This document shows, in pieces, positions 7,618 through 20,997 of a DNA stretch of 23,486 nt (position 1 is the first letter of the stretch; each line of letters starts with the position of its first letter). A program made the translations under genes and the position numbers. The stretch is from positions 1 to 23,486 of the IMG/VR virus record IMGVR_UViG_3300030388_001176. One strand, written 5' to 3'. The notes below the pieces were generated by a model, which was given only the letters and a program-made list of their open reading frames with translations, was not told where the DNA came from and searched no databases. The DNA is from a virus.

Positions 7618-7818
7618 ATGGATATTAATAAAGCGCTAGACCATTTCATGGCGATACATAATTTTAACCAAGAAGATTTAAGCAGAGAATGCTCATTATC
7701 TAAATCAGGCATTAGCTTAATTCGTAATGGATTGAGACAACCCAATCTTGTGACGATGGTTATTTTAGCTGAGTTGTTTCAAGTAAAACTTTCCGAATTT
7801 GTTGCGGCGGGTGAATGA
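7618..7818 (+). CDS. Cro/C1-type helix-turn-helix repressor, 66 aa
   Basis: A single small HTH domain of the XRE/Cro type: helix 1 near residues 5-14, helix 2 at NQEDLSREC (about 17-25), recognition helix at SKSGISLIRNG (about 28-38), then VTMVILAELFQVKLSEFVA. There is no C-terminal dimerisation or peptidase domain, so it is Cro-sized and not a full CI repressor. It is the first gene rightward from the divergent control region, preceding the O-like initiator, as cro does in lambda. An excellent ribosome site (AGGAGG) is present. It probably binds the nearby palindrome and represses the leftward promoter, perhaps also its own. Its stop overlaps the next start. Confidence 0.8.
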   Translation: MDINKALDHFMAIHNFNQEDLSRECSLSKSGISLIRNGLRQPNLVTMVILAELFQVKLSEFVAAGE

Positions 7819-8435
7819 TGGACAAACCTAGTTATTACGCAATTATTCCGGCCAATGTCAGATACAACAATGATTTAAAGCCAAACGCCAAATTGCTGTA
7901 TGGCGAAATTACTTGTTTATCCAACGCCGAAGGTTATTGTTGGGCAATGAATAAGTATTTTGCTGAGCTGTACGGCGTTGACAAGAAGACTATTAGCCGT
8001 TGGATTGCACAGCTAAATGCTTGCGGTTATATAGATGTGCAGCTTAACTATCGCGAAGGTACTAAACAAGTCAAAAGCAGGTACATAAAGCTGACTACAC
8101 CTAGGGACGAAATAGTCCCCAGTCTAGGGACGGAATTGCTCATACCTAGGGACGAAATAGTCACAGTTAATAGTACAAGCAATAATAATACTAGTGTATT
8201 TAAGACACCATCTATTCAAATGGTTGCTGAGTATTGCACAAGTAGGCAGAATAAAGTTGATGCAGAAACATTTATAGACTTTTATGCTAGTAAGAATTGG
8301 ATGATTGGCAAGAATAAAATGTCTAACTGGAAAGCGTGTGTACGAACATGGGAAAAGACGGAGAAAGCGAATGCAAATAAACGATCTAGTAAAAGCAGCG
8401 AAGCATGGACAAACCCCAACCCAAATAACTTTTAG
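7815..8435 (+). CDS. Replication initiator, lambda O-like architecture, with winged-helix N-terminus
   Basis: Initiators of this type bind repeats in their own gene and recruit helicase through a partner protein. The N-terminal part (about 5-93) is a winged-helix domain: SYYAIIPANVRYNNDLKPNAKLLYGEI, then GYCWAMNKYFAELYGVDKKTISRWIAQL and GYI. A polar linker (about 94-130) carries two PRDEIV peptides, which are the translation of the iterons. The C-terminal part (about 135-182) has the phage replication pattern FIDFYASKNWMIGKNKMSNWKACVRTWEK. The gene overlaps the Cro-like stop (the ATG at 7815 and a second at 7818 both fit) and the P-like start. Confidence 0.8.
   Translation: MMDKPSYYAIIPANVRYNNDLKPNAKLLYGEITCLSNAEGYCWAMNKYFAELYGVDKKTISRWIAQLNACGYIDVQLNYREGTKQVKSRYIKLTTPRDEIVPSLGTELLIPRDEIVTVNSTSNNNTSVFKTPSIQMVAEYCTSRQNKVDAETFIDFYASKNWMIGKNKMSNWKACVRTWEKTEKANANKRSSKSSEAWTNPNPNNF
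8099..8220. other. Candidate replication origin: three iterons plus AT-rich stretch inside the initiator gene
   Basis: ACCTAGGGACGAAATAGTC occurs exactly at 8099-8117 and 8144-8162. A third, diverged copy (TCTAGGGACGGAATTGCT) lies between them at 8123-8140. The steps are 23 and 22 bases, about two helical turns, so all face one side of the DNA. Each is an interrupted inverted repeat: GGGAC-N6-GTCCC is perfect in copy 1 and weaker in the others. A very AT-rich stretch (8163-8220) follows. The lambda origin has the same design, with iterons in the middle of O followed by an AT-rich unwinding region. This position and spacing make chance unlikely. Confidence 0.75.
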
Positions 8436-8796
8436 TAACGAAGAAAAAGATTCTACTGTTTATTTATTTATGCGAATGACTGGCGTATGGGGTGTGTCAA
8501 AGATGAATAGCCTTTACCCCGACGAGGCTGCACAACAGATAGCTAGGCGAACATTTGCTAAAAGAATCGGCAAGTACACAAGAGAACAGATAGATGCTGC
8601 TATTAACTTTATGTCAGAGCAGAAAAGTAACGCAAAGATGTATGAGTGGCCCGACGTTAACGAAGTGCTTGGATGTTTGCGCGACTTAAATAGAACAAGG
8701 CCGTTGCATCAGACTTATGTAGCCATGCTTACGCATGACGTTGACAAGGGCTATGTGCAAGATCAGTTGTGCAGCTTGAAAGAGATGTTTAAATGA
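8371..8796 (+). CDS. Lambda P-like helicase-loader candidate, 141 aa
   Basis: The start at 8371 (MQINDLVKAAKHGQ) has a GGAG ribosome site seven bases upstream, so it is preferred to the ATG at 8305 deep in the initiator gene. After a polar head, VYLFMRMTGVWGVSKMNSLYPDEAAQQIARRTFAKRIGKYTREQIDAAINFM resembles the P-family pattern of an FPxxW/W-x-x-like helix followed by a helical repeat counting cells of the form 'T-x-E-Q-I-x-x-A', then WPDVNEVLGCL. It is shorter than lambda P, so this may be a minimal loader or only a partner of the initiator. Its place directly after the O-like gene is the strongest support. Confidence 0.6.
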   Translation: MQINDLVKAAKHGQTPTQITFSNEEKDSTVYLFMRMTGVWGVSKMNSLYPDEAAQQIARRTFAKRIGKYTREQIDAAINFMSEQKSNAKMYEWPDVNEVLGCLRDLNRTRPLHQTYVAMLTHDVDKGYVQDQLCSLKEMFK

Positions 8797-9134
8797 ATAA
8801 GTTTCGTTCCTTGCCAAAAGGCGGTCAAGAAAAAATTTTAAAGTACACTGGATTTGATGATGAGTATCCTTTGTTACGAAACAATCAAGAATATACCTGC
8901 TCTCAATTAGCAGAATTATTAAACAAAAAACCTGACGCAATAAAAAAACGACTAGTTAACAAATACACATTCACTAGCAATGATCTACGCAATACTGCTA
9001 GTCAATGGCATAGAGATAGATCAAAATTAGCGAACACAAGTTTTATTAATGATGATGATGGCAAAGCAACATCTAAACAATTTTCACAACAATGGTTAAG
9101 TACAAAAGCATTAGTAATAAAAACAAACACTTAA
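8793..9134 (+). CDS. Hypothetical protein with possible HTH, 113 aa
   Basis: It overlaps the P-like stop as ATGA and begins MNKFRSLPKGGQEKILKYTG. The middle, EYTCSQLAELLNKKPDAIKKRLVNKY (about 33-58), has the form of a helix-turn-helix (helix at CSQLAELL, turn at NKKP, recognition helix at DAIKKRLV). The end is polar and Ser/Thr/Asn-rich. A DNA-binding or regulatory role is inferred from this alone. The function is otherwise unknown. Confidence 0.65.
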   Translation: MNKFRSLPKGGQEKILKYTGFDDEYPLLRNNQEYTCSQLAELLNKKPDAIKKRLVNKYTFTSNDLRNTASQWHRDRSKLANTSFINDDDGKATSKQFSQQWLSTKALVIKTNT

Positions 9135-9175
9135 CATTCAAAAAAGAAGTTATTACAAAGTTTGCGAGGTATGAT

Positions 9176-9634
9176 ATGGGTGAAAGATGGATAGTTCAAA
9201 GTGAATTTAGTTTAAAGAAATTCATAGAGCATACTGAAAAACTATATGCAGATAATGGTTTTATTTCTTTTACATGGTCGAGAAAGAAAATGCGATCCGC
9301 AGCACAGCAAGGTGCTATGGAATTGTATTTTAGAATGGCAGCGCAAGAGTTAAACAATGCTGGGATTTATCAAGAAATTAATTCACAGTTTTTTAAAAAG
9401 CCATTATCAATACCGTGGACAGAGAATAGCTTTAAAGAGTTTTGGCGATCTGTACAATTAGCCATGTTTAACATTAAATCAACAACAGAATTACCAAGCG
9501 ATAAAGTATCACAAATATATGATGTGATTAATTTAGCTTTAATAGATAGAGTAGGCATACACATTCCATTCCCCCAAAAGGAAAACAAATGGGCATTAAA
9601 AGAGAAGCGTGTGACGCGCATTTCAGCACCATAG
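9176..9634 (+). CDS. Nin-region-like phage protein, about 152 aa, function unknown
   Basis: The frame is open from an ATG at 9092, but that start has no ribosome site and lies inside the preceding gene. The ATG at 9176 has GAGGT five bases upstream and gives MGERWIVQSEFSLKKFIEH, so I use it. Later, SIPWTENSFKEFWRSVQLAMFNIKST and VYDVINLALIDRVGIHIPFPQ-like residues form the part that recurs in phage proteins encoded near ninB/ninG-type genes. A NinB-like role in recombination is possible from place but not shown. It overlaps the next gene's start by 46 bases. Confidence 0.6.
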   Translation: MGERWIVQSEFSLKKFIEHTEKLYADNGFISFTWSRKKMRSAAQQGAMELYFRMAAQELNNAGIYQEINSQFFKKPLSIPWTENSFKEFWRSVQLAMFNIKSTTELPSDKVSQIYDVINLALIDRVGIHIPFPQKENKWALKEKRVTRISAP

Positions 9635-17901: not shown

Positions 17902-20900
17902 TTATAGATCATTTGCAGCTTTTTCTGCTGCATTAAAAGCAGATCGCAAATAAAATAAATTCTGCAAAGGTATTAATCTTCTTAATGTTCTAATGTCAGA
18001 TTCAGTCATTTCGCCAGAAGATGTTATAGCATTTGTAGCTGCTACCGTTGTACTTAATAAACTGCCTAATGTTGGCCCAAGCAATGATTCTGATACTGTT
18101 CGTGATACTTGTTTAGAAGCAAATTCATTAACTCCAAGTAACGATCTAAGACCAATTGAATTGCCTGATATTTTTTCAACTGTAGTATTTATTTCTCCTA
18201 ATATACCAGCAATACCAGATCGTTCTATACCTTCCATAGCCCAAACTTTTGGGTCATCACTAATTGGTCTTCCTGCAATTTTTTGCTTTAAGTAATATGA
18301 AAACATACCCATACCCATTAATGACGCTACACCGCCTAATGTATTTTGATCTTGCCGTTGTATAGCGGGAATAATTATTCTTTGTGTAGCTGAAAAAATA
18401 AATGACCTAAATTGACCAATTGTTTTTCCCATTTCGCTAGACATAAATAATGGCTTTTCTTGGCCAGGAATTATAATAACTCTGTCGCTTTCTTTTCGTA
18501 CCGCAGCGCCCCATATTACTTCTAAATTAGGTTCATCCCAATTTTTGGCGTTTGTTAACCATATACCATCTGTTTTAGTTCCGTGTTTTTTAACTTGCTG
18601 CCACATTCTTTTAGATGTTTCTTCATCAATTCCTAATCTAGCTAAACGCTTGTCATACTTTCCTTTAGACAAACTATCAAAAATAGATGTTTGCATTGTT
18701 ACTGCATGAAGTTGTTTCATTCCAGCAGTCCAATAATCAAGCAAGTTAAACTTACCAAACTGATTTACACCGGCCCTTAATCCTCGCTCTACAATAGTAC
18801 CGCCTTGAGCATAGTCTGCAACGTCAGCAATAATTTCAGATTTGCCTGATTTAAGAACATCTGTACCTACGTCATATCTTCGCAACTCTTCTTGTGCAAG
18901 TTTTGTAGCTTTTGAATTAGAAATTAAAGGAATTAAACCTTTACTAAAAGTGTTTATAAATCCTTCAGCCATTACAACACGCGCAACATCTGGCAAACTT
19001 GATATAGTTACACCACCTAACAATCTAAGATAATTTAAGTCTCTTGCAGAACGACCCATTCTTGACCAAACGTTATCAGCTTGAAAGCCATAAACACCGC
19101 GTATCCTATCGCGCATACCAGCAATGTCTATTTCATCTTGCTCTTTTTGCTTGGTCATTTTTTTGCTTTGTTTAAGAGTAAGATTAGGATTATCCAACTC
19201 TTTGTCCCACCAATCTCTAATTTCTTTAATTTGAACATCCATGTTTACATCATCAAAAGCCCTCATTAACTCTAAATCGCCAGCTATATTCTGTACATAT
19301 CTTGCGCCTAAAACTTCTATGTCATTTTCTAAAAATTCTTCAATTAATTCATCATCAATTTGAAAGACTCTATTTCTTAATGGGCCACGCAAAGATGTTC
19401 CAGAAATACCTTTAGAATTAACACCTGCTTTTTTTCCATCGCCTAGTTTCCAATCATAAGGTAAACGACCATCTGGACTGCCTTGTATGCGCGTAGCAAT
19501 TTCGCCAGCTATTCTCCTGTAGTCTTGATCTTCCATATCTAAACGATTTTTAAATTCGGAATTTTTAATTATTGCTTCTTGTTTTTTTAATTTCTTTTTT
19601 TCATCACGCGATGCAGTTTTAATTTGTTTTTTTAAATTTGCTAATTTAACTTCTACAGAATCACCAGCAAGATCATCTAAAATAGACTGACTTTCATCAA
19701 ATAACTTAGTGTCTTTGTCAGCTAACCAATTAGATACTTTAGTAATAAATGCCGGACGATTAGCTGTAATTTTATCTTTATCCCACACACGATTTAAATA
19801 ATTATTTGCTGTTGCTACATCAACATCTTCCGGCAATAACTTTTGTGCAACCATTTCATTTTTTAATGGATCGTATAATTCTTTTCGCCACATATCAGAG
19901 GCTGCTTTTACTTCTGGTATATCACTATCGCCTTTGCGTATTGCAGTAGCTATAGCTTTGTTAAATTCTCTTTTGTTTAACTTACCTTTTCCTTTTTTAT
20001 ATGCATTAAAAAATTGTGCATTTTCTTGCAAAGCAGTTGCATATTTACCAGAATGTAATTGCGCTAATGACTCTGCTGCTTGTAAAACTTGCCCATCCAT
20101 TTCTATTGGATTTTCTGCTAACCGTACAGCTATTTGCCTAGTAAACGGATTGTCACTTGTTATTGTTCTTGATAAAGGGTCAAAACCTAAAGCTTTAGTT
20201 ACAAACTTAGCAACTTTTCCTTTTACTTGTTGATCACCAAACGTCTTAGCAGCACCTATACTTTCTCCTATTGGCGCTGTTTCAGCATTAATTGCAGGAT
20301 TAATACCCGCTGCAATTTTAGGCTCAACATTTAACACATCTTCTAATTCAGCTATTTGTTTTTGGTCAATACCATACTTTGAAAGACTAGCTGCACCACC
20401 ACCTAATATGCCACCCAACAAAACGCCAGCACTAACATTAATAGCAGATTCGCCAAATGTTCTAGTAAGTTGTTGGGAATGCAATGCTGCTTCTTCTATG
20501 GCTGTATCAACAGCAACAACAGAGCTAGTAACAGCAGCACCACTTAAAATACTTTTTCCAGCGCGATATGTATTTAATGCTACACCGCCAACAGATAAAA
20601 ATGTTAATGGTGAAGCTATGCCAGCAGCCATAGTCATAACGCCGCCTAACGCACCAGCTTGTTGGATTGTTTGGCGATCCTTCAGTTCCATTGCCATTTG
20701 GCTGCGTACTGCTTCTATTTCGCTTTCATCATCAGCATATATTGCAGACATAACAAAATTTTCATTTAATTTTTCTGCGTCAGTAAAAAAACTATAAGCA
20801 TCAAAATTAGGATTATCTTTTGTATCAGGCTGACCAACTACTTTAGAAACTAATGCTCCAACTATATTTTCTTGTCTAAATGCCGCGCCTGTTACTTCGC

Positions 20901-20997
20901 CAAAACTTAAATCAGCAATAGGGTCAACAGGTTCAGTAGGCAATAAACCTTGCCTAAGACCGTAAATCTCACCTTTTACACTAGGTACAAAAGGCAT
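17902..20997 (-). CDS. Large internal virion / DNA ejection protein, 1031 aa
   Basis: Phage ejection proteins are released from the capsid and form a channel for DNA entry. Length and place, directly before the T7-type fibre, match T7 gp16-like proteins. Visible are a hydrophobic region (about 110-135: ALGGVMTMAAGIASPLTFLSVGG) and further Gly/Ala-rich hydrophobic parts to about 205, a long Lys/Glu-rich helical middle, and KAKEQDEID-like charged helices around 610-640. No lytic transglycosylase motif is evident at the N-terminus, unlike T7 gp16. The start overlaps the stop of the gene before (TAATG). The call rests on size, composition and context. Confidence 0.65.
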   Translation of the reverse strand: MPFVPSVKGEIYGLRQGLLPTEPVDPIADLSFGEVTGAAFRQENIVGALVSKVVGQPDTKDNPNFDAYSFFTDAEKLNENFVMSAIYADDESEIEAVRSQMAMELKDRQTIQQAGALGGVMTMAAGIASPLTFLSVGGVALNTYRAGKSILSGAAVTSSVVAVDTAIEEAALHSQQLTRTFGESAINVSAGVLLGGILGGGAASLSKYGIDQKQIAELEDVLNVEPKIAAGINPAINAETAPIGESIGAAKTFGDQQVKGKVAKFVTKALGFDPLSRTITSDNPFTRQIAVRLAENPIEMDGQVLQAAESLAQLHSGKYATALQENAQFFNAYKKGKGKLNKREFNKAIATAIRKGDSDIPEVKAASDMWRKELYDPLKNEMVAQKLLPEDVDVATANNYLNRVWDKDKITANRPAFITKVSNWLADKDTKLFDESQSILDDLAGDSVEVKLANLKKQIKTASRDEKKKLKKQEAIIKNSEFKNRLDMEDQDYRRIAGEIATRIQGSPDGRLPYDWKLGDGKKAGVNSKGISGTSLRGPLRNRVFQIDDELIEEFLENDIEVLGARYVQNIAGDLELMRAFDDVNMDVQIKEIRDWWDKELDNPNLTLKQSKKMTKQKEQDEIDIAGMRDRIRGVYGFQADNVWSRMGRSARDLNYLRLLGGVTISSLPDVARVVMAEGFINTFSKGLIPLISNSKATKLAQEELRRYDVGTDVLKSGKSEIIADVADYAQGGTIVERGLRAGVNQFGKFNLLDYWTAGMKQLHAVTMQTSIFDSLSKGKYDKRLARLGIDEETSKRMWQQVKKHGTKTDGIWLTNAKNWDEPNLEVIWGAAVRKESDRVIIIPGQEKPLFMSSEMGKTIGQFRSFIFSATQRIIIPAIQRQDQNTLGGVASLMGMGMFSYYLKQKIAGRPISDDPKVWAMEGIERSGIAGILGEINTTVEKISGNSIGLRSLLGVNEFASKQVSRTVSESLLGPTLGSLLSTTVAATNAITSSGEMTESDIRTLRRLIPLQNLFYLRSAFNAAEKAANDL

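Follow-up and report, generated by a model that had tools for sequence, protein, structure and literature searches.

The stretch of viral DNA analysed here (IMG/VR record IMGVR_UViG_3300030388_001176; 23,486 nucleotides, hereafter the window) carries, inside a single open reading frame, three copies of a short repeat followed by AT-rich DNA. This arrangement raises the question of whether the repeat is maintained as DNA or as peptide, which protein recognizes it, and whether the phage starts its replication there.

An iteron array in the linker of a phage initiator gene

The gene containing the repeats (Table 1) is, judged from its sequence, a phage replication initiator of the PF13730 (HTH_36) type. 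HTH_36 was the sole Pfam domain matched by the ORF (7.6e-15; 54.9 bits, compared with a curated cut-off of 25), and the PHROG families matched were those of replication initiation (phrog_19658, 2.9e-30; phrog_270, 2.9e-26; others weaker). In the AlphaFold2 model of the protein (mean pLDDT 82.5), the recognition helix (residues 57-69) is followed by two strands (73-79 and 86-93), then by a linker, whose residues 102-125 have a pLDDT below 50, and by the C-terminal helical part. No solved structure closely homologous to the initiator was retrieved by sequence search, and a scan of genome contigs yielded three weak matches only.

Table 1. Positions of the initiator gene, its recognition-helix codons, the iterons and the adjoining AT-rich DNA in the window.
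Feature	Position	Strand	Description
Initiator gene	7815-8435	+	206 aa; PF13730 (HTH_36) winged helix-turn-helix, disordered linker, C-terminal helical domain
Recognition-helix codons	7983-8021	+	Residues 57-69, including Lys58 and Arg62 (AlphaFold2 model); 58 and 62 covary most strongly with arm bases
Possible degenerate upstream site	8080-8095	+	GGTAC-ATAAAG-CTGAC, 24 bp before iteron 1; weak; called by the array finder as an extension only
Iteron 1	8104-8119	+	GGGAC-GAAATA-GTCCC; 5-bp arms perfect
Iteron 2	8127-8142	+	GGGAC-GGAATT-GCTCA; left arm intact, right arm mostly gone, 2/5 pairs remain
Iteron 3	8149-8164	+	GGGAC-GAAATA-GTCAC; single broken pair
AT-rich stretch, presumed unwinding element	8165-8214		74% AT; directly after the last iteron

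Residues ~97-117 are encoded by the iteron region, which overlaps the low-pLDDT linker and lies ~300 bp into the gene. The iterons follow each other in steps of 23 and 22 bp, neither of which is a multiple of three, and iteron 2 is consequently read in a frame different from that of iterons 1 and 3. Thus, a repeated peptide cannot account for the repeated DNA, and the step lengths indicate that the repeat was selected as DNA. None of 300 mononucleotide shuffles attained the array score of the ORF (26.5), nor did any of 300 synonymous-codon shuffles, which preserve the protein, including its repeated peptide PRDEIV. The bare palindrome GGGAC-N6-GTCCC with at most two mismatches, on the other hand, is not rare in the window (2 seen vs 1.8 expected); statistical significance belongs to the array, not to the single palindrome.

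A preliminary description of this DNA had reported two exact 19-base copies and a diverged one, the 23- and 22-bp steps, and the position of all repeats in the linker ahead of an AT-rich stretch, and all of this was recovered, with the exact copies at 8099-8117 and 8144-8162 and the diverged copy between them. It had also written every copy as GGGAC-N6-GTCCC, which is true of copy 1 only (copy 3 ends in GTCAC, copy 2 in GCTCA), and had the iterons write the peptide PRDEIV repeatedly into the protein, which they do in copies 1 and 3, copy 2 being in a different reading frame. In three close relatives (L002-L004), iteron 2 is nearly intact (GGGAC-GAAATT-ATCCC), so that the copy in the window has probably decayed; its spacer has decayed along with it in the window, not in these relatives. 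Either two good sites may suffice, or the lineage may be losing one. The possible upstream site overlaps the conserved codons RYIKL, and a weak first copy is often present at the equivalent place in relatives. The GC skew of the window changes sign near 7.5 kb, where gene direction changes as well; being confounded in this way, it provides no independent support for an origin.

Around the initiator, a Sak-type annealing protein, a YqaJ exonuclease and a NinG-like gene were recognized (Pfam/PHROG). The three ORFs directly 3′ of it (8374-8796, 8793-9134 and 9092-9634) had no significant Pfam or PHROG match; judged by its position, one of them may encode an unrecognized helicase loader. The first of the three was considered as a lambda P-like helicase loader and rejected, as hhalign with lambda P was not significant either. 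An ORF on the minus strand (17902-20997; 1031 aa) matches the PHROG family "internal virion protein with endolysin domain" (7.3e-100); the contig therefore pairs a podovirus-like virion gene with a PF13730 type of initiator.

Array conservation and residue-to-base covariation among relatives

Viral contigs, phage records and plasmids served as sources for relatives of the initiator gene (244 unique). For each unique gene, the 5-base arm was deduced from the linker DNA alone, without the protein, by scoring all 1024 5-mers in chains of palindromic sites with A-rich 6-bp cores; the arms are therefore not measured binding sites. With the 99th percentile of shuffled linkers as threshold, 212 of the 244 relatives contained an array and 32 fell below; the 212 form 107 clusters, which are not fully independent of each other. 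The arrays mostly comprise 2-4 phased sites. Of 442 steps, 435 measure 22, 23 or 24 bp, and 75% have a length not divisible by three. Over the 50 bp that follow the final iteron, AT content averages 80%, compared with 64% for the ORF, and it is higher there than in the ORF in 105 of the 107 lineages. What is constant in the family is the slot in the linker, the 22-24-bp step, the A-rich core and the AT-rich flank, whereas the letters of the arms vary (TTAAC in Lactobacillus phage c5, TTGAC in phage D2SVT, TCACG in Fusobacterium phage FNU4, TGGAA in L246 and GGGAC in the window). Counting GGGAC-N6-GTCCC alone, which is absent from most relatives and would pass for a refutation, was dropped since the arms vary by lineage.

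According to the preliminary description, relatives with a conserved protein that lack repeats in the linker would speak against its reading. The great majority have an array, as given above; a few do not. Among the 32 below threshold, a clear array is missing from the linker of about eight (L230/L232, L313/L321, L037/L041/L062 and L455), in which the initiator is conserved. The origins of these array-less relatives may lie elsewhere or consist of another type of site.

The inter-iteron spacers (8098-8103, 8120-8126 and 8143-8148 in the window) are conserved family-wide in an unusual manner. Ahead of the left arm, C or G (on either strand) occupies positions -4 and -3 in about 98-99%, mostly with TA next; CCC or GGG occurs in 73% of the spacers, compared with 8% of random windows from the same genes. 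Typical spacers are TACCCCTA, TACCTA and GAGGGTA. Two public records among the relatives carry questionable labels. The initiator region of Acinetobacter phage D2SVT (PQ554527.1; L083) has scores against the query equal to those of an Enterococcus phage and is 97.8% identical to a region on an Enterococcus faecium plasmid record; its stated host, Acinetobacter baumannii, may be a mislabel. The initiator of Enterococcus phage SEsuP-1 (MZ333458.1, 1486-2343; L088) carries the annotation "type II restriction enzyme, methylase subunit", apparently in error.

Sequence-weighted mutual information was calculated between the first 93 residues of the protein (columns with enough data) and the five arm bases, with shuffled linkers of preserved base composition serving as the null. 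The highest-ranking pair was residue 62 with the innermost arm base (arm base 5), the second was residue 58 with the middle one (arm base 3), irrespective of whether the null was subtracted or not (1.06 vs 0.25 bits and 0.89 vs 0.32 bits, respectively). Across the 107 clusters, Arg at residue 62 goes with an innermost C (37/42), and Lys (25/27), Asn (11/12) and Ser (7/8) go with A; at residue 58, Arg (16/16), Glu (10/12) and Lys (7/10) go with a middle G, and Val with A (17/23). Among pairs of proteins at least 65% identical outside the helix, arm base 5 differed in 7 of 174 with equal residue 62, but in 350 of 556 with unequal residue 62. Since the base tracks the residue even among such similar pairs, the covariation is not due to relatedness. 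On a tree built without the helix columns, co-change was significant for residue 62 with arm base 5 (p=4.3e-6), residue 58 with arm base 3 (p=1.3e-4) and residue 61 with arm base 1 (p=6.3e-7), each being the best co-changing column for its base. Residue 84, in the wing, showed a correlation with arm base 4 when pairs were compared, but none on the tree, and is, therefore, not relied on.

The covariation also has predictive power. In a hold-out with training sequences below 60% identity, residue 62 gave the correct arm base 5 in 84%, whereas the nearest neighbour was right in 48% and the majority rule in 22%. For loci fetched afterwards and less than 85% identical to any earlier one, the innermost base was predicted in 16 of 18 (nearest neighbour, 14/18; majority rule, 4/18) and the middle base in 19 of 21 (majority rule alone, 16/21). 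Thus, the out-of-sample gain shows most clearly for the innermost base, in comparison with the majority rule.

The window itself combines Lys58 and Arg62 with GGGAC arms, as the covariation predicts. A distant relative with the same two residues (L403; 54% identical to the window outside the helix) has three GGGAC sites, and another (L303; 60%) points in the same direction with a weaker array. The nearest lineages beyond the window's own clade (65-67% identical), in contrast, mostly combine different residues at 58 and 62 with CCCAA, CCCTA, TTTAA or TTGAC arms. Thus, the arms follow the helix rather than ancestry. The anticipated covariation of iteron sequence with winged-helix recognition residues is borne out by the 212 relatives and by the out-of-sample loci, and it supports the earlier suggestion that the encoded protein binds the iterons, which, as far as sequences can tell, it very probably does. 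For PF13730 initiators as a group, these data point to a likely residue-to-base code, in which residue 62 specifies the innermost base, residue 58 the middle base and residue 61 probably the outermost one, together with a fixed origin grammar (spacer with 2-4 C or G plus TA, 5-bp arm, A-rich 6-bp core, second arm, AT-rich flank).

Comparison with known origins

An iteron origin inside an initiator gene is of a known kind. In bacteriophage lambda, the iterons are inverted repeats in gene O, are bound by O dimers, and lie next to ~40 bp of AT-rich DNA (PMC5043065; PMC7466680). The window shares with ori-lambda the position inside the initiator gene, the inverted repeats around a short A-tract, the AT-rich DNA thereafter and a similar step (20-24 bp in lambda, 22-23 bp in the window). 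The two differ in that the best-paired lambda iterons have an odd spacer and form a 17-bp palindrome, whereas those of the window have an even spacer and span 16 bp. Lambda also encodes its helicase loader P beside O, and no relative of P was recognized 3′ of the initiator in the window. Lambda O belongs to PF04492 (5.7e-36), whereas the window protein matches PF13730 only; a direct profile comparison of the two yielded nothing, and the link therefore rests on some PHROG "O-like" profiles that match both. The designation of the gene as lambda O-like in the preliminary description, accordingly, applies to the layout, namely iterons inside the gene with adjoining AT-rich DNA throughout the family, and not to the Pfam family, which is HTH_36 rather than Phage_rep_O. 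Its statement that the repeats are unrelated in sequence to the lambda iterons is correct for the arm letters.

Plasmid initiators of the RepA_N family provide a second parallel. In pSK41, four Rep boxes lie within rep, over a dispensable linker (PMC5703833), and RepA_N iterons have the form of semi-palindromes that converge on a poly-A tract (PMC7145576). Like the window protein, RepA_N initiators (pSK41, pTZ2162) have a winged helix-turn-helix and semi-palindromic iterons around an A-tract, and the pSK41 origin is likewise inside its initiator gene. Among the top fold matches of the model are RepA_N N-terminal domains, one of them DNA-bound (4pql, 4pt7 and 5kbj), with Z-scores of 9.8, 9.4 and 8.7, although generic winged helices reach 8-9 and identity in the RepA_N structural alignment is about 15%. 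RepA_N initiators belong to PF06970, for which the window protein has no match in Pfam.

A precedent for the domain itself is plasmid pPR9, where PF13730 in such an initiator is documented: a PF13730 domain and the origin region replaced their pSK41 counterpart as a ~500-bp block, and the plasmid still replicated (PMC5703833). Initiators of this hybrid type share PF13730 with the window protein, but their C-terminal domain comes from pSK41. The exchange fits the proposal, made for the window beforehand, of a transferable origin-initiator unit. In PLE satellites, the DNA-binding domain of a RepA_N initiator covaries with the origin as a modular pair (PMC8263062); there, however, covariation is among a few replicon types and not residue by base, and the origin is intergenic, whereas that of the window would be intragenic.

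Proposed function of the array and its alternatives

By analogy with lambda O, pSK41 RepA_N and pPR9, the three repeats and the AT-rich stretch are judged, with high confidence, to be the replication origin of the phage, located inside the gene for the initiator that recognizes it. Somewhat at odds with this assignment, the window has three sites only, one of them decayed, about eight relatives show no clear array, and no helicase-loader match was recognized for the gene that follows the initiator. We infer that, in such an origin, the PF13730 winged-helix domain (residues ~1-95) would occupy each 16-bp site as a dimer, its two recognition helices, about 11 bp apart in successive major grooves, each reading one of the 5-bp arms; the distance between arm centres (11 bp, approximately one helical turn) fits this geometry. 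Arg62 would set the innermost base (C) and Lys58 the middle one (G), with the A-rich 6-bp core lying between the helices. Several occupied sites in a row would then distort the DNA and open the AT-rich stretch, upon which the C-terminal part of the initiator would recruit the helicase.

Covariation demonstrates recognition, not the purpose of recognition. The initiator might, instead, bind the sites as an operator and repress its own gene or module, the origin being elsewhere; many phage regulators are winged-helix proteins. This autoregulation is improbable, considering that the sites lie far inside the gene, nearly always beside AT-rich DNA and in a phased array of mostly 2-4, that the lambda and pSK41 origins are placed likewise, and that domain and origin region moved together in pPR9. 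Operator and origin roles could also coexist.

Two further explanations are very unlikely. If PRDEIV were a useful repeated linker peptide, DNA identity would be a by-product or stem from recent duplication, and iterons 1 and 3 do encode the identical peptide. This is already contradicted by iteron 2 and most neighbouring copies in relatives, which are mutually out of frame, by the failure of synonymous shuffles to attain the array score, by the disorder of the linker in the model, and by arms that track the recognition helix. Equally poor is the case for operators of another protein, for example, the Cro/CI-type HTH protein encoded upstream (7618-7818; 66 aa, predicted to bind DNA), whose gene overlaps the initiator start: the arm bases follow initiator residues 58 and 62 across ~100 lineages with varied neighbouring genes. 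A role of the inverted repeats as hairpins, in RNA or in a single strand, is hardly credible: copy 1 can form a 5-bp stem, but copy 2 barely pairs, and the folding energy does not stand out (z -1.2; equalled or surpassed in stability by 27 of 200 shuffles).

With the array interpreted as an origin, what appears to be new is the residue-level code and the shared spacer grammar; neither was found for these initiators in the open-access literature, in which older papers are thinly covered. Because reader protein and target lie together in one gene, each relative that is sequenced amounts to a natural experiment in protein-DNA specificity; a predictive code can already be drawn from about a hundred diverged lineages. 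Phage genomes rarely have their origins marked. If the code is true, sequence alone would suffice to find the origin in a newly sequenced phage or plasmid and to predict the specificity class of that origin, and replicon compatibility, the swapping of origins between phages and plasmids, and the joint change of initiator and origin specificity would become directly testable.
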